Below, piece by piece: positions 1 to 50,218 of a stretch of DNA of 64,000 nt. Position 1 is the stretch's first letter. Every line of letters begins with the position of its first letter. This DNA is from Arcobacteraceae bacterium (lineage in GTDB: Bacteria; Campylobacterota; Campylobacteria; Campylobacterales; Arcobacteraceae): positions 186,001 to 250,000 of the forward strand of contig JAQUAG010000002.1 in assembly GCA_028687375.1 (NCBI GenBank), given 5' to 3'. The notes beneath the pieces were generated by a model. The model made no database searches. It was given only the letters and a program-made list of their open reading frames with translations, and was not told the origin of the DNA. A program made the position numbers and the translations under genes.

Positions 1-1163
1 CTATTCAAAATGCACTTCAAGCTTTGTGGATGAACCAAATAGGTGGAGTTGCTATATTGATTGCGATACTTTTATCTCTTTATTATTACAACACACTTTA
101 TTTGGATTTGCTTTTATTGTTGGTTGATGGGAAATTTATCTTGCCTCTTTCATTTTTAGTGATAGCTTCATTTGTAAAAGGTGCATCTATCCCTTTTGAA
201 AAATGGCTACTTGGTGCGATGGTTGCTCCTACTCCTGTGAGTGCCATTTTACATAGTGCAACGATGGTAAAAATAGCTCCCTATTTGATACTCAAAATCG
301 CCCCTGCATTTTCTCCACTTTTAGCTTTGATTGTTACATTTTCTGGAAGTTTTGTATTTATGTCGGCGTCACTTATGGCTTTAAGTCGTGATTATTTCAA
401 AGAGATTTTAGGACTTTCAACGATTGCACTTCTTGTACTTATGATAGCAATAGCTAGTATTGGAACTCCAATGGCAGTTAATATTGCACTTATTTTGATT
501 GTTTTTCATGCTATTTCAAAAGCACTTTTATTTTTACAAGCTGGGATTTTAGAAAAAGTTTATCATTTGAAATATCTTCAAGATATAGATTATCTCACTT
601 CCAAATCCCCTTTAATAGTGTTTTTTATCCTTGTTGGTTTTGGTTCTTTAACTTTACCACCATTTGGAGCTTTTTTAGCGAAATTTGCTTCGATTGAACT
701 GCTAGCAAACCTTGGAAAAGAGAATATCTTTTACCTTTTTAGTTTAGTGTTTCTCTTAATTGGTTCAGTATTTTTAACACTCCTCTATTTTAAAGTTGTC
801 ACAAAACTTTTACCGAAAAATAAAACGATGATGGTTGAAAAAATAGCTATCCCAACAACTTATAAACTCACCTCTTTTACTTTGGTATTTTTACTTATTG
901 TGGGGATTTTCTTTAGCTTTAGATTTAATATTTTAGATTTTTATGAGATAGTTATTCCAGCTATTTTGATATTTATCATTCCCCTACTTTTTTATCTTTT
1001 AAACTTTTCAAATATAAAAAGAACAAACGAATACAATTGTGGAGAGAAAGATGAACTAGCGTTATCAGCTTATTATTTTGAAATAACTCCTAAAGTGCAA
1101 AAAGCCATTTTTTATATCTCAATATGTTTGATTATCTCTATTATACTTGGAGGTTTAGTATGA
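1..1163 (+). CDS. echA: Ech/Coo-type hydrogenase membrane subunit (NuoL/HyfB-like), 5' end missing
   Basis: The frame is open from base 3 with no credible start, so the window holds only the C-terminal part of a proton/sodium-pumping antiporter-like subunit. The signature of the Nuo/Mrp/Hyf family is present: a WL..AM.APTPVSA.LHSATMV segment about 50-75 residues after the TTG at base 24, followed by many hydrophobic helices. It ends with a soluble NEYNCGE segment and a last helix. It is the ion-translocating arm of the membrane-bound group 4 [NiFe] hydrogenase whose other five subunits follow with overlaps. The full-length family is usually about 600 residues or more, so roughly a third or more is outside the window. 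The Ech name rests on the gene order A-B-C-D-E-F; Coo (CooM) is an equivalent label. Confidence 0.9.
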   Translation, partial: IQNALQALWMNQIGGVAILIAILLSLYYYNTLYLDLLLLLVDGKFILPLSFLVIASFVKGASIPFEKWLLGAMVAPTPVSAILHSATMVKIAPYLILKIAPAFSPLLALIVTFSGSFVFMSASLMALSRDYFKEILGLSTIALLVLMIAIASIGTPMAVNIALILIVFHAISKALLFLQAGILEKVYHLKYLQDIDYLTSKSPLIVFFILVGFGSLTLPPFGAFLAKFASIELLANLGKENIFYLFSLVFLLIGSVFLTLLYFKVVTKLLPKNKTMMVEKIAIPTTYKLTSFTLVFLLIVGIFFSFRFNILDFYEIVIPAILIFIIPLLFYLLNFSNIKRTNEYNCGEKDELALSAYYFEITPKVQKAIFYISICLIISIILGGLV

Positions 1164-1984
1164 TTGAATATCTTTTAATAGCACTCACTCCACTTTTTGG
1201 AGGGCTAATTTATGGAGTTCAGCGAGTTGTAAAAGCTAGGATGCAAAATAGAGTTGGACCTCCTATTTTACAGCCATTTTACGATATGTTTAAACTCCTT
1301 GATAAAGAAGTGATGATTATCAACAATTACCACATCATCTTTGCTATTATGCACCTTCTTACACTTTGGATAGTGGTTGCTTTTGTAATTTTGGGAAAAA
1401 GTTTACTCTATGTGATATTTTTACATCTGTTATCTTCTATTTTTGTTGTACTTGCTGGGTATAGTGTAAAGTCTATCTATTCACATATGGGGTCAAATCG
1501 AGAGTTACTTTCGATTGTTGCTTATGAGCCTATTTTGATACTTGTTGCTGTTGGTTTTTATATGGTAAATGGGAGTTTTGATATTGAGACTATTCGTTCA
1601 AATCCAAGTACAATTGCAAGTATGATAGCTTTATTTGTAGCTTTTTTACTCACAATGCCCATAAAACTAAAACTCTCTCCATTTGATGCGACAGAAGCTC
1701 ATCAAGAGATAGTTGGTGGAGTTGAGGTTGAGTATAGTGGAGTATTTTTTGAGATACTTTATATGGCAAAATGGATTGAATATGTTTTTATATATTTACT
1801 TTTGATTCTTTTTGCTGGGGATAATTACTTTATCGCTTTTGGTTTGTTTGCGATAGTTTTTTTAGCCCTTAATCTAGTAGATAATGCAACAGCAAGGGTG
1901 CGAATAGATAGTTTAGTCAAAATTGTTTTAGGATTTGGACTCTTTTTAAGTATCGTAAATCTTATAGGACTTCATTATGTTTGA
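1160..1984 (+). CDS. echB: Ech/Coo-type hydrogenase membrane subunit (NuoH-like)
   Basis: This NuoH/HycD/CooK family protein anchors the hydrogenase module to the pump. It has about eight hydrophobic segments and the family loops: a QNRVGP stretch near residue 30 and a SPFDATEAHQEIVGG-type loop after mid-protein, which in complex I lines the quinone or coupling site. I place the start at 1160 because a GGAGG lies 6 bases upstream and the ATGA overlaps the echA stop. A longer reading from 1124 would run through the end of echA and has no ribosome site. Translational coupling to both neighbours is likely. Confidence 0.92.
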   Translation: MIEYLLIALTPLFGGLIYGVQRVVKARMQNRVGPPILQPFYDMFKLLDKEVMIINNYHIIFAIMHLLTLWIVVAFVILGKSLLYVIFLHLLSSIFVVLAGYSVKSIYSHMGSNRELLSIVAYEPILILVAVGFYMVNGSFDIETIRSNPSTIASMIALFVAFLLTMPIKLKLSPFDATEAHQEIVGGVEVEYSGVFFEILYMAKWIEYVFIYLLLILFAGDNYFIAFGLFAIVFLALNLVDNATARVRIDSLVKIVLGFGLFLSIVNLIGLHYV

Positions 1985-2435
1985 GTTTAAAAAATTTAGA
2001 AAAAAATCCCCGTGGATACTCCACTACAACGCTGGAAGTTGTAATGGTTGCGATATAGAGATATTGGCGTGTCTTAGTCCAAAATACGACCTTGAAAGAT
2101 TTGGAGTGATAAATACAGGAAACCCAAAACAGTCAGATATATTCCTAGTAACTGGACCAGTAACCTATAGAAGTAGGTCAAGACTCCTAGAACTCTACAA
2201 CCAAATGCCAAATCCAAAAGTGGTAGTCGCTGTTGGAAGCTGTGCGTGTACGGGTGGAGTTTTTAGAGGAATGTACAATGTGGAAGATGGAGTAGATAGA
2301 TATATCCCTGTAGATGTCTATATCCCAGGATGTGCAAGTAGCCCTGAACTTATAATGGATGGTGTGGTAAAAGCTTTAGAGATATTAGAAAAAAAAGAGC
2401 AAAAAGAAAAAGAGAGAAGTGAAGATGATAAATAG
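1977..2435 (+). CDS. echC: Ech/Coo-type hydrogenase small subunit (NuoB-like)
   Basis: A 152-residue small subunit carrying one [4Fe-4S] cluster next to the NiFe site. The four cluster cysteines sit in GSCNGCD near residue 22, GSCACTGG near 88 and PGCASSPE near 118, as in NuoB, CooL and EchC. It has no signal peptide and no extra ferredoxin clusters, so it faces the cytoplasm. The gene overlaps echB by 8 bases. The lysine/glutamate-rich tail after residue 130 is an appendage that neighbours of this family often lack. Confidence 0.93.
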   Translation: MFEFKKFRKKSPWILHYNAGSCNGCDIEILACLSPKYDLERFGVINTGNPKQSDIFLVTGPVTYRSRSRLLELYNQMPNPKVVVAVGSCACTGGVFRGMYNVEDGVDRYIPVDVYIPGCASSPELIMDGVVKALEILEKKEQKEKERSEDDK

Positions 2436-2775
2436 AATTCCCACAAGTTTGCCTACAGTTGTTGCAAATATAAAAGCTTTTTATGATAAAAAGATATGGC
2501 ACTTTTTGACTTTAAATGGTGTCAAACTCGATAGTGAAACTACCGAAATCCAATGGATATTTTCAAAATATGGTGCTATTAATGAAGTGACTATGTTTTA
2601 TACAAGTGTGAAACAAGATGAGATAATACCAAGTATCGTTGAAGTTCTCCCAAGTGCTATTATTTCCCAAAGGGAGATAGTTGATATGTTTGGGATAACT
2701 GTAGAAAATAGTGAAAAAGGGCTTTATTTAGATGAGGATAGTGAACAAATGCCACTTAGTAGTTGTGGGATATAA
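2425..2775 (+). CDS. echD: Ech/Coo-type hydrogenase subunit (NuoC-like)
   Basis: A short NuoC/CooU/EchD-type protein of about 116 residues. The recognisable part is the C-terminal half, with a SAIISQREIVDMFGI stretch corresponding to the conserved E.ReI.DmfGi segment of NuoC. It bridges the small and large subunits in this enzyme class. I prefer the ATG at 2425 over the in-frame GTG at 2419; both lie inside the end of echC, so the genes overlap. It stops two bases before the echE start. Confidence 0.85.
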   Translation: MINRIPTSLPTVVANIKAFYDKKIWHFLTLNGVKLDSETTEIQWIFSKYGAINEVTMFYTSVKQDEIIPSIVEVLPSAIISQREIVDMFGITVENSEKGLYLDEDSEQMPLSSCGI

Positions 2776-2777
2776 AA

Positions 2778-3884
2778 ATGGAAACAAAACCAATGACAAA
2801 TAAAAAAATAATAAATATTCCTCTAGGGGCTCAACATATCTCTCTTCTTGAACCTGTAAAGTTTCGTTTTTCTTGTGAAAATGAAACGATAGTTGGGGTG
2901 GAGAGTGATGTTGGATTTGTCCATAGAGGGATAGAAAAAGCTTGTGTGACAAAATTTAAATACGATGCTATCCCTTATGTGGTGGCTCGTATTTGTGGGC
3001 TTTGTGCGATTACACACTCTTTATGTTACACCACTGCAGTTGAAAATCTTCTTGATGGGGAAGTGAGCCGTAAAGCAAAATATCTTCGTATGTTGATGGT
3101 GGAGCTTGATAGGATTCATTCTCATATGTTGTGTTTATCTCATACTTGTGAAAATGCTGGATTTGAAGCGATGTTTATGCAAATTATGGGTGATAGGGAA
3201 TATGTGATGGATTTGCAAGAGAAGATGAGTGGAAATCGAGTACAGTTTGATTATATCAGTATTGGTGGGGTGAATAGAGATATTACAACAGATATCATCA
3301 AAGATATAAAAACAAATCTTGCAATCGTTAAAGAGAAAGTCAATAGTTATATCGATGAGTTTTCTTCTAATTGGAGTTTATCTTTGAAGTTTCAGGGGAT
3401 TGGAACTTTGAGTTTGGATGAAGCGTATAGTTATAATGCAATTGGACCACTAGCTCGTGCAACTGGACTAGCAACCGATGTGCGAAGTGAAACGGAGTAT
3501 CTTCCATACAAAGAGGTAGGCTATGAGATGCAAACAGCACAGAGTGGCGATATTTTTGGAAGAAATATGGTACGACTTGCTGAGATACGCAACTCCATAC
3601 AGATGTGTGAAAATATCGTTGATGGGTTGCCAGATGGGGAGATTATGACGAAGCTAAAAGGGAAACCAAATGGGGAAAGTATAGTGCGACTTGAAGCTCC
3701 AAGGGGTGAACTTATGTATTATATCAAAGGTGATGGAAAAGCGATGCTCAATCGTGTTCGTATAAAAACGCCTACATTTTCGTGTATTCCTGCTTTTATG
3801 GAAGTTTTTAAAGGTGCGAATTATGCTGATGCACCAGCGATTTTAGCGTCATTTGACCCCTGTTTGTCGTGTACTGCGAAGTAG
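2778..3884 (+). CDS. echE: Ech/Coo-type [NiFe] hydrogenase large subunit (NuoD-like)
   Basis: The catalytic subunit for H2 turnover. Both Ni-binding motifs are intact: RICGLC (Cys73, Cys76 from this start) and a terminal DPCLSC (Cys362, Cys365), so it is a true hydrogenase and not a NuoD. The protein ends three residues after the last cysteine. There is therefore no C-terminal peptide for a maturation protease to remove, as in CooH, and unlike the other hydrogenase of this window. The GGGATAT before the ATG at 2778 serves as ribosome site; TTG 2763 and ATG 2793 are alternatives. No maturation (hyp) genes are in the window. Confidence 0.93.
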   Translation: METKPMTNKKIINIPLGAQHISLLEPVKFRFSCENETIVGVESDVGFVHRGIEKACVTKFKYDAIPYVVARICGLCAITHSLCYTTAVENLLDGEVSRKAKYLRMLMVELDRIHSHMLCLSHTCENAGFEAMFMQIMGDREYVMDLQEKMSGNRVQFDYISIGGVNRDITTDIIKDIKTNLAIVKEKVNSYIDEFSSNWSLSLKFQGIGTLSLDEAYSYNAIGPLARATGLATDVRSETEYLPYKEVGYEMQTAQSGDIFGRNMVRLAEIRNSIQMCENIVDGLPDGEIMTKLKGKPNGESIVRLEAPRGELMYYIKGDGKAMLNRVRIKTPTFSCIPAFMEVFKGANYADAPAILASFDPCLSCTAK

Positions 3885-3893
3885 GAAACAATT

Positions 3894-4295
3894 ATGTATC
3901 AAAGTTTTAAAAAAGCATTTCAAAATCTATTTAAAAAACCTCAAACGATAGATTATCCAGCATCGCCAATAGAGAAGCCTCAAGGGAGTCGTGGACTTAT
4001 TGAGTATGGAGAGAGTGAATGTATCTATTGTTTAAAATGTGAAAAGGCTTGCCCTCCACAAGCGATACTTTTTGTCCACACAGATACCCCAAGCGATAAT
4101 GAAAAAAATAAAAAATCTTTAAAATACAACTACAATCCACATCTTTGTATCTATTGTGGAGAGTGTGTACGAGCTTGCCCAAAACCACAAGAGGCTTTAT
4201 GGCAAAGTGAAAAAAAACCTTGGATTGGGGTGAAAGAAGACAGGGTAAATGATGAGTGGTTTGAGATAGAAAAGTTAAAGAAAGAGACTCCTTAG
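3894..4295 (+). CDS. echF: Ech/Coo-type hydrogenase 2x[4Fe-4S] ferredoxin subunit (NuoI-like)
   Basis: A 133-residue polyferredoxin with two CxxCxxCxxxCP motifs, ECIYCLKCEKACP near residue 42 and LCIYCGECVRACP near residue 84. It would pass electrons between soluble ferredoxin and the EchC cluster. A 25-residue spacer with many Asn/Lys residues separates the two cluster motifs. The start has AGGAAA seven bases upstream. It closes the operon and ends 10 bases before the converging DUF2779 gene; I see no clear hairpin terminator in that gap. Confidence 0.92.
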   Translation: MYQSFKKAFQNLFKKPQTIDYPASPIEKPQGSRGLIEYGESECIYCLKCEKACPPQAILFVHTDTPSDNEKNKKSLKYNYNPHLCIYCGECVRACPKPQEALWQSEKKPWIGVKEDRVNDEWFEIEKLKKETP

Positions 4296-43650: not shown

Positions 43651-44526
43651 TTATTTTAGCCTCTCTAAAACTTCCAAAGCCCCCATCTCAAATTTTGAAA
43701 ATGCAAACCATTTTTTACCCAAATCTTTAAGACTAGCTCCGATATGATAAATCTCTTTATCATCAATGATTATAAATCTATCATGAGAGTCTTTAAAAGT
43801 TTTTATCGTGATATTGTCATATTGTGTATTGTATTTTTCTAAATCTAATTTGAGTTGTTTTGATATGATGTGGGTATAGATAGTTACTTTTATATTTGGT
43901 ATCTTAGAAAATATAGTAAGGGTACTATCATCTATATAGTTATCGATAAGTATAATTTTGTTATTTGCTTCCCTTATTAAATCAGATATAAAACTATAAG
44001 CATCAAAAATTTGACCGTTATAAAATATACCTTGTGTTGGTTTTAATTGTTTTGATTCTAAAGCATCAAATATTTTATCAAATTTTTCATCTATCTCTAT
44101 TTTATCTTTTAATCTTAAAGTTTCAATATTGTCAAGTCTTTGAAAAATAGACCCATTTTGAGATAAAAACTTTCTCATTTGTGCAAATGTTCTAATGATA
44201 GAGATAGTTACATCTGAAGCAATTTTACTTTTTAAAATAGTTGCCAACATATAAACACCCTGTTCTGTAAATACTTTAGTATTATATTTACGATGTATTC
44301 CTCGACTATTCTTTAAGGTCAAAATTTTTGACCTTAAAGAATTTTCTTCTTCACTAGTCAATTCAAAATAAAAATCTTCAGGAAATTTAACAATATTATT
44401 TCTAACTGCTTGATTTATATGTTTTGTTTCTACTCCATATAGTTCTGCTAAATCTTTATCTAACATCACCTGTACATTGCGTACTGTATATATTTTATTA
44501 TGTATATCTTGAATTGCTAGTTCCAT
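43651..44526 (-). CDS. ORF6N-domain protein with PLD-like C-terminal domain, copy 2
   Basis: 291 residues. The ORF6N domain (NKIYTVRNVQVMLDKDLAEL, then KVFTEQGVYML) and the C-terminal HDRFIIID...HIGASLKDLGKKWFAFSK domain closely match copy 1 at 8603, and the 3' part is also alike at DNA level. AAGGTA precedes the ATG. It is divergent from the RhuM/PLD gene, which has the same C-terminus, across about 140 bases. The coding sequence contains a 35-bp palindrome. Confidence 0.85.
   Translation of the reverse strand: MELAIQDIHNKIYTVRNVQVMLDKDLAELYGVETKHINQAVRNNIVKFPEDFYFELTSEEENSLRSKILTLKNSRGIHRKYNTKVFTEQGVYMLATILKSKIASDVTISIIRTFAQMRKFLSQNGSIFQRLDNIETLRLKDKIEIDEKFDKIFDALESKQLKPTQGIFYNGQIFDAYSFISDLIREANNKIILIDNYIDDSTLTIFSKIPNIKVTIYTHIISKQLKLDLEKYNTQYDNITIKTFKDSHDRFIIIDDKEIYHIGASLKDLGKKWFAFSKFEMGALEVLERLK
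44308..44342. repeat. Perfect 35-bp intragenic inverted repeat in ORF6N copy 2
   Basis: Two 17-base arms (left arm ATTCTTTAAGGTCAAAA) around one central base, at the codons for NSLRSKILTLKN. The position matches the palindrome of copy 1, but arm sequence differs on both sides in a compensating way. Confidence 0.95.
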
Positions 44527-44669
44527 TTTATTTACCTTGTATAATTTTATTTTACAAACTATAACACAAAATATTTTTTCAACTTAAAAACATTGCAATC
44601 TGACATACTTTTAAATAAAAATAAAAATTTATGTTATTGTTATCAAAACAATTTATTAAAGGTGATGCT

Positions 44670-45536
44670 ATGAAAAATATTTCAAATATTGTACTTTACA
44701 ATGATGGCGAACTGGAGTTAAAAGTTTCTCTCAATGAAGAAACGATTTGGCTTACTCAAAAACAGCTTAGTGAACTTTTTAATGTAGAAATTCATACCAT
44801 CAACTATCATATTAAAAATATCTATAAGCAAAAAGAATTAGATAAAATTTCAACTATTCGAAAAATTCGAATAGTTCAAAAAGAGGGAAATAGAGAGATT
44901 CAAAGAGATGTTGAACACTATAATCTTGATATGATAATTTCTATTGGATATAAAGTAAATTCTATCACAGCAACAAAATTCCGCCAATGGGCAACATCAA
45001 TCCTCAAAAACTATATTAAAAATGGCTATGTAATAAATGGTGAAAAAATCTCAAATGAAAGATTTATCGCACTTGAAAATGATGTAAATATTCTAAAATC
45101 TCAAATGAATACGGTTCAATCACTTATAAAAAACAATACTTTAGAAACAGCCCAAGGGATATTTTACGACGGACAAATTTATGATGCTTATGTTTTTGCC
45201 AATGATTTATTAAGAGGTGCAAAAAATGAAATAATTTTGATAGATAACTATATCGATGATACCGTTTTTACTCTATTTTCAAAAGTTCCAACTATTCAGG
45301 TGACGATATATACTCATAGTATTTTAAAGCAACTCAAACTTGACTATGAAAAATACTCCAAACAATATTCCAATATCACCCTAAAAACTTTTCAAAACTC
45401 TCACGATAGATTTTTGATACTTGACAGTAAAGAGATATTTCACATCGGAGCAAGTTTGAAAGACCTTGGCAAAAAATGGTTTGCATTTTCTAAGATAGAT
45501 TTAGAAGCGGAGAGCTTGATAGAAAGATTAAGATAA
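44670..45536 (+). CDS. RhuM-family N-terminus fused to the same PLD-like C-terminal domain
   Basis: 288 residues. The first ~130 are RhuM-like (ETIWLTQKQLSELFNV, then GYKVNSITATKFRQWA), a winged-helix-type module unrelated to ORF6N. The last ~135, from QGIFYDGQIYDAY, carry HDRFLILD and HIGASLKDLGKKWFAFSK as in both ORF6N genes. I start at 44670 because AAAGG lies 7 bases upstream; the ATG at 44631 has none. It is followed by RhuM debris. Confidence 0.83.
   Translation: MKNISNIVLYNDGELELKVSLNEETIWLTQKQLSELFNVEIHTINYHIKNIYKQKELDKISTIRKIRIVQKEGNREIQRDVEHYNLDMIISIGYKVNSITATKFRQWATSILKNYIKNGYVINGEKISNERFIALENDVNILKSQMNTVQSLIKNNTLETAQGIFYDGQIYDAYVFANDLLRGAKNEIILIDNYIDDTVFTLFSKVPTIQVTIYTHSILKQLKLDYEKYSKQYSNITLKTFQNSHDRFLILDSKEIFHIGASLKDLGKKWFAFSKIDLEAESLIERLR
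44852..44876. repeat. 25-bp intragenic inverted repeat in the RhuM/PLD gene
   Basis: Arms AACTATTCGAA and TTCGAATAGTT around AAA, at codons STIRKIRIVQ, in the DNA-binding half just after the winged-helix-like part. Confidence 0.9.
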
Positions 45537-45660: not shown

Positions 45661-45730
45661 TTGTTATTGTTATCAAAACAATTTATTAAACGTGATGCTA
45701 GGGGAAATATTTCAAATATTGTACCTTACC
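45661..45730 (+). repeat. Duplicate of the RhuM/PLD gene 5' end
   Basis: Matches 44631-44700 with about six changes, including loss of the ATG (ATGAAA became AGGGGA) and of a base in the ribosome site. It runs into the stop codon of the Amt-GGDEF gene on the opposite strand. Confidence 0.88.
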
Positions 45731-47533
45731 AACAATAAACCTTATTTCTCCCAGTTTCTTTTGCTTGATACAACCCTTTATCGGCTTTTTCTAATATCGC
45801 TTCAAAAGTTTCAAATTCATTTTTAGCACAACTCAGACCAAAGGAAGCGGTTACTTTTTTTACTTCTGGGAAAGTATGTTTTTCTATCGCTATTCTTATC
45901 TTTTCCGCTATTTTTTCCGCTGTAACGATATCTGTTTTAGTTGTAACCAGAACAAACTCCTCTCCACCCCATCTAGCAAATAAGTCATATTCTCGTATTT
46001 GCTTTTGCACTATAAGAGCTAACTCTTTTAAAACTTCATCTCCTACACCATGACCATAAGTATCATTGATATTTTTAAATTTATCTATATCTATCATCGC
46101 TACACACATAGAACTAGCAAATGGATTTATCTCTTCGATTCTCTCCATTAATGCTCTTCTATTGATCACTTTTGTCAAAGGGTCAATCTCTGCTTTATTT
46201 TTTAAAGTGGTATTTTGGTGTCTTAATTCCACTTGTTTTTTTTGTAAGATTTCTAAAAGATAATTAAAAAATTTTGCCACAAGTCCAACTTCTGTACCTC
46301 TTTCTTCATGTATCTTACTTTTAATATTTCTAGTTTTCATAATCTTCACGATACTCTCTATAGTATCTACCCAAGGGAGTTTTGCATTGTGTTCTGTTAC
46401 GTTTAATCCTAACACTTCATGTTTTTTTCGTACCCTTAAAATACCCAATTTGGCCAAAAGGAGAAATACAATAAGCCCAAACACAAAAGCAAATACAAAA
46501 GCAACAGTGATACCAAGTGTTTGTACCAAAATATACTCTATTCGTGTTTGCCCATCTTGAAGTGGTGCAAAGATACCAACAGCCAATGTACCCCAAACTC
46601 CAGCGAAACCGTGGATTCCAACTACGCCTAAAGGGTCGTCTATTTTAAATCTTAATATTAATTTATCAAAAAAGAACATAACAAAAGCGGAGATAAGTCC
46701 TACAAGTGCTGATTCTTGTGTAGTGAATTGGTCACAACCTGCTGTTATCCCTACAAGTCCTGCGATAAGACCAAAAGAGAACACCTCTACACCAACTCTC
46801 TCTTTGTTGATTAAAGTTATTATCCAACCACCAAGTCCACCAAAAGCTGCTGCAATTGTTGTGTTTAAAAGGATTAAAGTGACAAGTGGGTCAAAGCGAA
46901 GTAAACTTCCAGCATTGAATCCAAACCAAGCAAAAAAGAGGATAAAAACACCAAATACAATAAAATTATGATTGCTAGGTGCAAAATACTTCACTTGACC
47001 ATGTGTAAATTTACCAAGTCTTGGACCTAATACCAATGCTCCAGCCAATCCTATCCAAGCACCTAAAGAATGGACTACCGTCGAACCAGCAAAATCTTTA
47101 AAACCTAAAGCGTGAAGCCAACCACTATCACTCCATGCCCAATGCCCAAATATAGGATAGATAATAGCACTCACAATTATTGAAATAAATATGTAAGCAT
47201 TAAACTTTATCCTCTCAGCAACAGCACCTGAAACGATAGTAATAGCGGTTGCTGCAAACATCGCTTGAAAAAAGAAAAAACCATTTTGAGTATAATTTGC
47301 ACCGTCAATTGCAAAATCACTCCACCGATATCAGTCCCAAACATCAAACCAAAACCAATAAGCCAAAAAAAGATGATACTAAAAACGGTATCAATAAGGT
47401 TTTTCATAGCCACATTGATAGTATTTTTTGACCTAACAGTCCCCGTTTCAATAAGTGCAAATCCAAATTGCATCATAAACACTAAAAATCCACAAAGAAG
47501 TACCCATAAAAGATTGATATTTTCTATAACCAT
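45726..47533 (-). pseudogene. amt: Ammonium transporter fused to GGDEF domain, one-base frameshift
   Basis: Two overlapping frames make one gene. Codons from 47533 encode LLWVLLCGFLVFMMQFGFAL and the first helices up to TDIGGV; after a likely missing base near 47318-47322 the other frame continues DGANYTQNGFFFFQAMFAAT to the end. The Amt part has DFAGSTVVHS, WFGFNAGS and VGIHGFAGVWG, including the pore histidines. A coiled linker leads to a GGDEF domain with RWGGEEF and an upstream RxxD inhibitory site. If intact it would couple ammonium uptake or sensing to c-di-GMP synthesis. The shift may be a real mutation or a read error; neighbours show no other errors. Confidence 0.85.
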
Positions 47534-47788: not shown

Positions 47789-50218
47789 ATGAAAATAGTA
47801 ATAGTCGGTGGTGGAATAACAGCTGTATATCTGGCAAATAATTTGCTTTTAAAAGATAGTTCTTTAGAAATTTTAATTTTATCAAATGAAAAATTTCCCC
47901 CTTATGATAGGATTCATCTTTGTGCACTTGTAGATAACTCTTTAGGGCTTGATGAAATAACACTAGAACTAAGTCCAAATGCGAAACTATTTTTAAATGA
48001 AGAGGTCACAAATATTGACCCAAAAGAAAAAGTGGTAACAACAAAAGATAACTCTTACCCTTACGATAAACTTATCATTGCAACTGGAAGTAAGCCAAAA
48101 GTTACCTTTGATATCTCAAATATAAAAAATGCTACAACTTTTAGAAGTGCCACTGATGCTTATAAGATACGAGACAATATACCTCATAAAAATGTAGTTC
48201 TAGTAGGTGTTGGACCTATTTCACTTGAACTTTTAGATACATTAAGTAAGATTGAAAATCTTGAAAATATCTATCTTATAGGACGAAAAGAGCATCTTTA
48301 TTGTAAAGATTTGGATATTGGTGCAGTTAAACTTATCGATACTATTTTTACTCAAAATAAAAAAATAAAAATCTCTTACAATGATGAGATAACAGATACT
48401 CAAATAGAAAATAATGAAATAAAAAAAATAATTACAAAAAACCATACCATAGAGAATCCATTTTTGATTTTTGGGGTTGGAATTGAGCCAAATATTGAGT
48501 TTGCTAAATCATCGCTTTCTTGCCATAGGGGAATTTTAGTTGATGATTGTATGCGAACAAGTGATGAAAATATCTATGCAGTTGGTGAAGCTTGTGAGCT
48601 AAGCTCAAGTAAATTTATAGCTGGAAGAGTTAAAGAGTGTACTAATGAATGTGATGTTGCTATTGCTTCTATTGTAGGGGAAGAAAAAGAATTTTTAGGG
48701 GAAGTGGCTATTGATGCCCTTAAAGTTGGCTCATTTTTATTGGCTGATATCACATCTAAAACTTATGATGGGAACGATATTAACAATGAAAATATCATCA
48801 TCTCTTCCAAAAAAGAAAATCGTTTTGATCAATATATCATCAACCAAAATAAACTTGTAAAATTTATAGGAATCAATACAAATATCGATATTTTACATCT
48901 TAAATCTTTGATGGAAGAGGAAAAATCAATCGATGCTGGATATTTCTTTGACAATAGATTAGTAAGTGAAAGAGGTCGACTTGTATGTAGTTGTTCTCCT
49001 ACTCATGAACTTGATTTGGTAGAGATTATTGAGGAAAACTGCGTAAGAGAATTTTGTGAACTCAAAGAGTTTAGTGAAGCTGGAAGGGTATGTGGAAGAT
49101 GTAAACAAGATATCTCTAAAATCATCCAATCTACACCTACAGACCCTATTATTGCGCAACAAAAAAAAGAGGCAAAAGCGCAAGCAAAACTTGAAAAAGA
49201 GCATCAATTAGTTGAAAAAAGGATTGATAAATACAATCAACTCCATGCAACAAATCAAATAGACACTACAAATTTAGATGCAGCAATGGAGAGTTTTGAC
49301 CTTAAAAATGAGTACAATAAATGGATTTCGATGATGACTGCAAGTCTACGACTCCATCCACAATATGAATCTACTATCCAAAAAGCGGTGAAAAACTTAA
49401 ATAAAATCCCAATCATTTGGCTTGAACTTTCAGACTGTACAGGGAATAGCGAAAGCTTTATAAAATCATCCCATCCAACAGTTGAGGATTTGATTTTGGA
49501 TTTTGTTTCACTTGACTATCATGAGTTACTTATGGCAGCAGCTGGAGATGAGAGTGAAACTGTCCTAGAGGAAACTATCAAAAAACATAAAGGAAAATTT
49601 GTTTTACTTGTAGAAGGTGCTGTTCCACTAGGACTGGATGGGAAGTTTTTACGAATTGGACCAAAAGGGGAAACGGGACTTGCACTTTTACAAAAATGTG
49701 CTAAAGAAGCGGCCATAGTTATCAGTGTGGGGAGTTGTGCTTATGATGGTGGAATAGTAGCTGCTGGAACAAATCCCACAGGTGCTGTTGGGGTTGCAGA
49801 GGCACTGCAAAGAGATGATATCATCAATCTACCAGGTTGTCCAACAAACCCTATCAATATTGTTGGAACTCTTTTACATTACATTATGTTTGAGGAACTT
49901 CCAGCCCTTGATACAAAAAATCGACCACTATGGGCTTATTCACATAAAATTCACGATAACTGCGAGAGAAGAGGACATTATGATGCTGATGAATTTGTCC
50001 AAGAATGGGGAGATGATGGAGCAAAACAAGGTTGGTGTTTATTTAAAATGGGATGTAAAGGACCGTATGCAAACCTTAATTGTTCGTTGGTGAAATTTAA
50101 TGAGGGTTCTAGTTGGCCAGTTCAAGTTGGGCATGGTTGTTTTGGTTGTGGCGAGGGGAAAATCGCTTTTGATAAATATGCAAATAATAGAGAACTTCCT
50201 GCTGAGGAGCAAAAATGA
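47789..50218 (+). CDS. FAD/NAD(P) oxidoreductase - BFD-like [2Fe-2S] - [NiFe] hydrogenase small subunit fusion
   Basis: 809 residues. Residues 1-300 are a two-dinucleotide flavoprotein like NirB or rubredoxin reductase (IVGGGITA at the N-terminus, ATGSKP, LVGVGPISLE, IYAVGEA). Residues 398-445 are BFD-like with CSC (400, 402) and CGRC (435, 438). A charged coiled linker (about 455-485) leads to the small subunit from ~540, with DCTGNSES, GSCAYDGG, LPGCPTNP, HDNCE, GWCLFKMGC, NC and GHGCFGC. The last three clusters are complete, but the second proximal Cys is Asn553. There is no Tat signal, so it is cytosolic. It could pass electrons from H2 to NAD(P)+. AAAAGG precedes ATG 47789. Confidence 0.9.
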   Translation: MKIVIVGGGITAVYLANNLLLKDSSLEILILSNEKFPPYDRIHLCALVDNSLGLDEITLELSPNAKLFLNEEVTNIDPKEKVVTTKDNSYPYDKLIIATGSKPKVTFDISNIKNATTFRSATDAYKIRDNIPHKNVVLVGVGPISLELLDTLSKIENLENIYLIGRKEHLYCKDLDIGAVKLIDTIFTQNKKIKISYNDEITDTQIENNEIKKIITKNHTIENPFLIFGVGIEPNIEFAKSSLSCHRGILVDDCMRTSDENIYAVGEACELSSSKFIAGRVKECTNECDVAIASIVGEEKEFLGEVAIDALKVGSFLLADITSKTYDGNDINNENIIISSKKENRFDQYIINQNKLVKFIGINTNIDILHLKSLMEEEKSIDAGYFFDNRLVSERGRLVCSCSPTHELDLVEIIEENCVREFCELKEFSEAGRVCGRCKQDISKIIQSTPTDPIIAQQKKEAKAQAKLEKEHQLVEKRIDKYNQLHATNQIDTTNLDAAMESFDLKNEYNKWISMMTASLRLHPQYESTIQKAVKNLNKIPIIWLELSDCTGNSESFIKSSHPTVEDLILDFVSLDYHELLMAAAGDESETVLEETIKKHKGKFVLLVEGAVPLGLDGKFLRIGPKGETGLALLQKCAKEAAIVISVGSCAYDGGIVAAGTNPTGAVGVAEALQRDDIINLPGCPTNPINIVGTLLHYIMFEELPALDTKNRPLWAYSHKIHDNCERRGHYDADEFVQEWGDDGAKQGWCLFKMGCKGPYANLNCSLVKFNEGSSWPVQVGHGCFGCGEGKIAFDKYANNRELPAEEQK

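Follow-up and report, generated by a model that had tools for sequence, protein, structure and literature searches.

A [NiFe] hydrogenase small subunit fused to a NirB-like flavin module probably gives sulphur-spring bacteria a direct path for electrons from H2 to NADP

The 64,000-nucleotide stretch of an Arcobacteraceae genome analysed here (the window; contig JAQUAG010000002.1, positions 186,001–250,000) contains a gene in which a [NiFe] hydrogenase small subunit is fused behind a flavoprotein, followed by a large-subunit gene (Table 1). The fused gene starts with an ATG at 47789, preceded by an AAGGA Shine-Dalgarno sequence, and continues in an unbroken frame to the TGA at 50216–50218. It overlaps the large-subunit gene by four nucleotides (ATGA), with the large-subunit ATG at 50215. 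The Fe-S ligands of the small-subunit part are present (C550, C650, C684, H722, C725, C750, C756, C765, C784 and C787). The hydrogenase pair stands alone, and its neighbours are a group of chemotaxis and response-regulator genes and a gene that joins an ammonium transporter to a GGDEF domain (Amt-GGDEF). The latter lies upstream in divergent orientation (45726–47533, reverse strand) and is split into two overlapping frames of 511 and 108 residues, a pattern that a frameshift or an error in sequencing would produce. Locus L071, in another genome, also has an ammonium-transporter-like gene close to its fused gene, there with a chemoreceptor-like tail. In positions 43651–45536 of the window, two divergent genes encode an ORF6N-domain protein and a RhuM-family protein that look alike in their C-terminal halves and differ in their N-terminal domains. 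An Rfam scan of the window gave no matches.

Table 1. Positions of hydrogenase genes and protein regions in the window
Feature	Position	Strand	Characteristics
Group 4 (Ech-type) energy-converting hydrogenase operon	3-4295	+	NuoL, H, B, C, D-like and dicluster ferredoxin; RICGLC and DPCLSC motifs
Fused protein, 809 residues	47789-50218	+	FAD/NAD(P) oxidoreductase, BFD [2Fe-2S], linker and [NiFe] small subunit
FAD/NAD(P) oxidoreductase domain, residues 1-390	47789-48958	+	GGGITA FAD motif, GVGPIS NAD(P) motif, Arg166, NirB-type GE motif
BFD-like [2Fe-2S] domain, residues 394-450	48968-49138	+	CxC (400, 402), CxxC (435, 438)
Helical linker, residues 451-505	49139-49303	+	Least conserved part, 35-46% identity
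Apparent decayed Tat signal, residues 506-543	49304-49417	+	Gapless alignment to membrane 1b small-subunit signal peptide; RR and hydrophobic core gone
[NiFe] small subunit, residues 539-800	49403-50188	+	Fe-S ligands present; proximal CxxC is CxxN (Asn553)
[NiFe] large subunit, 561 residues	50215-51900	+	RICGVC and DPCIACAVH ligand motifs; C-terminal extension past His

An earlier note on this DNA, made from the sequence alone, described one continuous three-domain frame overlapping the large-subunit gene, and the domain searches agree with it. Pfam profiles matched the flavin part (Pyr_redox_2, residues 1–269, E = 3.6e-38), the BFD part (Fer2_BFD, residues 398–447, E = 2.3e-6, score above the gathering threshold), the small-subunit part (Oxidored_q6, residues 550–697, E = 1.2e-27; NiFe_hyd_SSU_C, residues 717–792, E = 1.4e-26) and the large subunit (NiFeSe_Hases, E = 3.9e-201). 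The NCBIfam model TIGR00391 (hydA) matched residues 507–791 (E = 2.7e-111). The flavin module is NirB-like and not of the HoxFU type, as the note had proposed, since TIGR02374 (NirB) matched residues 3–460 (E = 8.1e-42), with a score below the full-length cut-off and coverage of profile positions 1–479 of 794 only. The sirohaem nitrite reductase domain is absent from the fused protein, and its identification as a NirB nitrite reductase was rejected. Among solved structures, the best matches to the small subunit are of the E. coli-type hydrogenase 2 kind, and those to the flavin part are the NirB-family proteins 1xhc and 3klj. The predicted model of the whole fusion was confident for the flavin and BFD parts only, and poor for the small-subunit part.

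The fusion is present at full length in at least 38 of 397 Campylobacterota genomes, including that of the window; this number is a lower bound because the search scored two candidates per genome. The 37 other copies, from four families, are 52–63% identical to the window's protein. Two further genomes contained partial matches to the fusion, and the remaining matching genomes encode separate small subunits only. A scan of named genomes with an FAD-BFD alignment gave 120 relatives, 80 of which were kept, and this search for the architecture, which the earlier note had called for, found the complete fusion in 77 of the 80 loci, with the other three interrupted by contig ends. Similar fusions in related epsilonproteobacteria, which the note had only surmised, are thus real. 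Chance or misassembly is excluded as the origin of the fused frame, because the frame is open at full length in both sets of genomes. The large-subunit gene is next after the fused gene in 67 of the 80 loci, nearly always overlapping it or less than about 100 bases away, and 26 of the loci have genes for Hyp or HycI maturation proteins close by. Five fused genes (L071, L087, L090, L108 and L114) have no adjoining large-subunit gene though the contig goes on. In L114, the fused gene is followed by other genes and, after these, by hypE and hypA, and in L071 by a small cluster of unrelated genes. A metagenome-assembled genome labelled Helicobacter pylori PMSS1 (L035), probably wrongly, has an FAD-BFD region 93% identical to that of the window and encodes ATP-citrate lyase. 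Two named loci are gammaproteobacterial (Thiomicrorhabdus sp. ZW0627, L066, and a Piscirickettsiaceae metagenome-assembled genome, L072). Their fused small subunits nest within the Campylobacterota clade (97/94 in the small-subunit tree), which suggests gene transfer.

The novelty implied by the earlier note did not hold, as the fusion architecture was described for Hydrogenovibrio and Campylobacterota in 2006, 2016 and 2019. The paper of Hansen and Perner (2016; PMC4744846) reports, for Thiomicrospira (Hydrogenovibrio) crunogena XCL-2, a small subunit of 813 residues that carries a pyridine nucleotide-disulfide oxidoreductase domain, credits it to Scott (2006), and names similar fused subunits in Sulfuricurvum kujiense, Sulfurimonas autotrophica, Sulfurovum sp. 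AR (locus L062 of our 80) and others. A 2019 report describes the fused subunit as present and expressed in Hydrogenovibrio crunogenus SP-41 (PMC6501319). The window's gene is a member of this XCL-2-type family of FAD-BFD-small-subunit fusions: a single frame of about 810 residues joins a pyridine nucleotide oxidoreductase to a [NiFe] small subunit, the protein has no Tat motif, with the RR missing at the aligned position, and no cytochrome b gene adjoins it in the window. No biochemistry or enzymology of any member of the family was found in the literature. New here are the conservation of ligands, the Asn shared with active enzymes, the NADP-type signature, the Tat remnant and the Ech-type synteny.

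The 32 residues preceding the small-subunit core align without gaps with the Tat signals of group 1b hydrogenases (for example, SREFNRW versus RREFMKW). The mean identity is 31% in register and at most 9% at shifts of one to six residues, and none of 2000 column permutations scored as high. The twin arginine is absent from the aligned position in all 77 fused sequences, and the mean peak hydropathy decreases from 1.48 in the 1b Tat signals to 0.36 in the fused proteins. As judged from this alignment, the linker holds a decayed Tat signal, and the protein appears to be a periplasmic 1b-type enzyme that was held back in the cytosol and linked with a flavin module. In the small-subunit tree, the fused clade (100/100) is sister to the Campylobacterota 1b enzymes (99/98), with long branches elsewhere that make deeper placement unsure. 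The large-subunit tree, midpoint-rooted and calculated with a reference set without Desulfovibrio, groups 1b with 1c/1d (91/87). The large subunit has the RxCGVC and DPCxACxVH motifs and the C-terminal extension of the 1b type, and scored 523 bits against NF033181, below the cut-off of 600. This model and that of Hyd-2 were the best, at about 500 bits. However, the fused enzyme and its locus lack the hallmarks of 1b: the Tat signal, the anchor at the C terminus and the cytochrome b through which 1b enzymes reduce quinone.

Assignment to group 3 (Hox/Shy) was rejected, since group 3 models gave the large subunit only 65–147 bits and there is no HoxFU/FNR-type diaphorase. Group 2 (2a/2d) was rejected as well: the small subunit matched Huc at 2e-20 and Hyd-2 at 2e-82, and the fused subunit and its large subunit are unlike the small subunit of about 290 residues and short, extension-less large subunit of group 2d. 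A separate 2d-like pair exists in the window's genome, which has four [NiFe] hydrogenases: the fused enzyme, the group 4 enzyme, a 1b enzyme and this pair (L003, contig C34 of genome G000). This second cytosolic pair comprises proteins of 292 and 423 residues, the large subunit ending in CSVCTTH without an extension, and sits by the 1b operon and a TetR-like gene. Its 2d-like label is drawn by analogy.

The cofactor-binding residues are conserved in the 77 complete fused proteins, which are mostly 50–60% identical to that of the window. The CxC/CxxC cysteines of the BFD domain are invariant, as are the small-subunit ligands save one gap at C787 and the proximal position, where Asn replaces the second Cys of the CxxC motif in every one of the 77. 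The FAD glycines are likewise conserved save one gap, and the NAD(P) glycines are present in 77 of 77. Arg166 is present in 75 of the 77 aligned proteins, and the residue before it is Gly, Ser, Ala, Val, Leu or Ile, and never Glu. The site lies where the second strand of the NAD(P) fold ends. NADH-preferring relatives carry a selectivity Glu there (Glu196 in MDHAR, Glu186 in Pdr), the removal of which from rice MDHAR, a fold relative, increased NADP affinity 16-fold (PMC5031999). An Arg in the alignment column of Arg166 is also found in P. furiosus 1xhc and CoA-disulfide reductase. The top fold matches of the flavin part include E175A/T176R/Q177G mutants of BphA4, whose changes, in a register set by eye, resemble the natural pattern of a small residue and Arg in the fused family. 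These mutants were reportedly built to switch BphA4 from NADH to NADPH. A phmmer search with the 66-residue NAD(P) segment gave no matches. Because a small residue and a near-invariant Arg replace the Glu of NADH-specific relatives, these two alignment positions favour a preference of the flavin module for NADP(H) over NAD(H).

Based on the fusion and its domains, the conserved ligands, the relationship to group 1b and the synteny described below, a mechanism can be proposed. We consider it reasonably probable that the fused protein and the large subunit form a cytosolic two-protein H2:NADP+ oxidoreductase, with the cofactors, electron path, direction and NADP preference deduced from sequence. 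The large subunit would split H2 at its NiFe site. Within the small-subunit part, the electrons would pass through the proximal Fe-S cluster, with three Cys and Asn, and then through the medial and distal clusters, and from there to the BFD [2Fe-2S] cluster, FAD and NAD(P)+, most likely NADP+. The fused enzyme probably lets sulphur-spring bacteria transfer electrons from H2 directly to NADP. Its ancestor was probably a respiratory hydrogenase of Campylobacterota that resembled group 1b and was exported through the Tat system. The signal peptide would have gained a NirB-like FAD-BFD reductase at its front and, with its twin arginine and hydrophobic core gone, would now act as a linker. The decay of the signal would keep the enzyme in the cytosol, where it would deliver reductant rather than reduce quinone.

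The same enzyme could run in reverse as a redox valve, evolving H2 at the expense of NAD(P)H when acceptors are scarce, which we consider unlikely. Cytosolic NAD(P)-linked hydrogenases of groups 3b and 3d are often bidirectional, the fused enzyme is also found in hosts other than reverse TCA autotrophs, and its host cells contain adjacent Ech-type enzymes that act on H2. However, the fused enzyme comes from an uptake-type lineage, its closest solved relatives are uptake hydrogenases, and any effect of the proximal Asn should be a higher cluster potential and a bias towards H2 oxidation.

The earlier note had allowed for ferredoxin as an acceptor beside NAD(P)+ and for a tie to carbon fixation. 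NAD(P)+ is the leading candidate, with NADP(H) favoured by the sequence. There is only a slim chance that the FAD-BFD part docks ferredoxin or another low-potential carrier to feed the reverse TCA cycle. The flavin part resembles ferredoxin and putidaredoxin reductases in fold, and ATP-citrate lyase is encoded in the window's genome and in most fused Campylobacterota tested. The Ech-type operon of the window is 43 kb from the fused gene, and a homologous operon adjoins the fused gene on the same strand in 20 loci (13 upstream, 7 downstream), including 11 of the 35 loci with enough flank. However, RuBisCO is present and ATP-citrate lyase absent in both gammaproteobacterial hosts, and three fused hosts from the window's own family (G122, G299 and G324) also lack the lyase, which favours NAD(P)H over ferredoxin as the product. 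The conserved glycines and Arg of the NAD(P) site point the same way, and a proximal cluster of raised potential would be a poor route to ferredoxin. The same hosts contradict a strict link to the reverse TCA cycle, and the carbon-fixation tie does not stand as stated. Recycling of H2 from nitrogenase was another candidate role and was set aside: nifH is present in 11 of 21 fused genomes versus 17 of 59 others in a chosen set counted by hand, which is suggestive, not decisive.

Hansen and Perner saw neither consumption of H2 nor activity in any cell fraction for H. crunogenus XCL-2, which carries the fused enzyme, and suspected that Fe-S sites had been lost (PMC4744846). In strain SP-41, where a group 1d enzyme is present as well, hydrogenase activity was reported in the membrane fraction (PMC6501319). 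It is highly unlikely that the fused family consists of decayed hydrogenases without proper Fe-S clusters. One proximal Cys is indeed replaced in every relative, but all other ligands are invariant, and purifying selection is indicated by a mean identity of 72% in the small-subunit part, compared with 52% in the flavin part. The proximal Asn looks like a tuned ligand position and not decay, because the window's genome also has it in the small subunit of its Tat-type membrane 1b enzyme (DCAGNSE), and it recurs in the active Huc (ACSGNT), which has three redox-active [3Fe-4S] clusters (PMC10017518). Other Campylobacterota 1b small subunits have it as well. This comparison weakens the published suspicion of dead enzymes. 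By analogy with Huc, the Asn may give rise to a [3Fe-4S] cluster of higher potential, which would be unfavourable for NADP reduction.

We regard it as very improbable that the small subunit is also made from an internal start or cleaved off the flavin part. The linker is the least conserved stretch and Met residues occur near 500–514, but no Shine-Dalgarno-like sequence was seen by eye ahead of the internal ATGs, the frame and total length are kept in complete copies, and no Tat motif is left for a separate product. Electron bifurcation is unlikely, since domain searches recognised one flavin site only.

Returning to the H2:NADP+ oxidoreductase, we speculate, at somewhat less than even chance, that an exported group 1-type hydrogenase was converted into a soluble enzyme and paired with an Ech-type hydrogenase, so that H2 supplies both NADPH and ferredoxin, as a second evolutionary solution that arose apart from the group 3 enzymes. 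Should H2-dependent reduction of NADP+ prove true, the enzyme would be among the simplest NAD(P)-linked [NiFe] hydrogenases, with two polypeptides, and could be useful in H2-driven NADPH recycling. It would provide vent and spring Campylobacterota and relatives of Hydrogenovibrio with a direct route from H2 to NADPH without reverse electron transport, and would exemplify an exported respiratory enzyme rerouted to the cytosol.

The fused subunits of XCL-2 and SP-41 share with that of the window the architecture, length, supposed cytosolic site, 1b-like large subunit, and lack of cytochrome b and Tat motif, whereas the accessible parts of their descriptions do not mention the BFD domain, NADP-type Arg, Tat remnant, Asn shared with active enzymes or Ech synteny. 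The membrane-bound group 1b enzymes of Campylobacterota have the nearest small subunits, the CxxN proximal motif and large subunits 47–50% identical to that of the window, but are Tat-exported, have a C-terminal membrane anchor and a cytochrome b partner, and lack a flavin module. The soluble group 3 enzymes (HoxHYFU of 3d, ShyABCD of 3b) resemble the fused enzyme in presumed cytosolic H2-linked NAD(P) reduction. They have HoxFU/FNR-type diaphorase subunits and a different large-subunit group, whereas the fused enzyme has two proteins and a NirB-like FAD domain. Its NAD(P)H:FAD module is shared with the N-terminal FAD-BFD part of NirB, the flavoprotein of tungsten aldehyde oxidoreductase (8c0z_E) and PadH of phenylglyoxylate dehydrogenase, which likewise exchange electrons with the Fe-S clusters of a separate catalytic core, but their cores are different and none is a hydrogenase.
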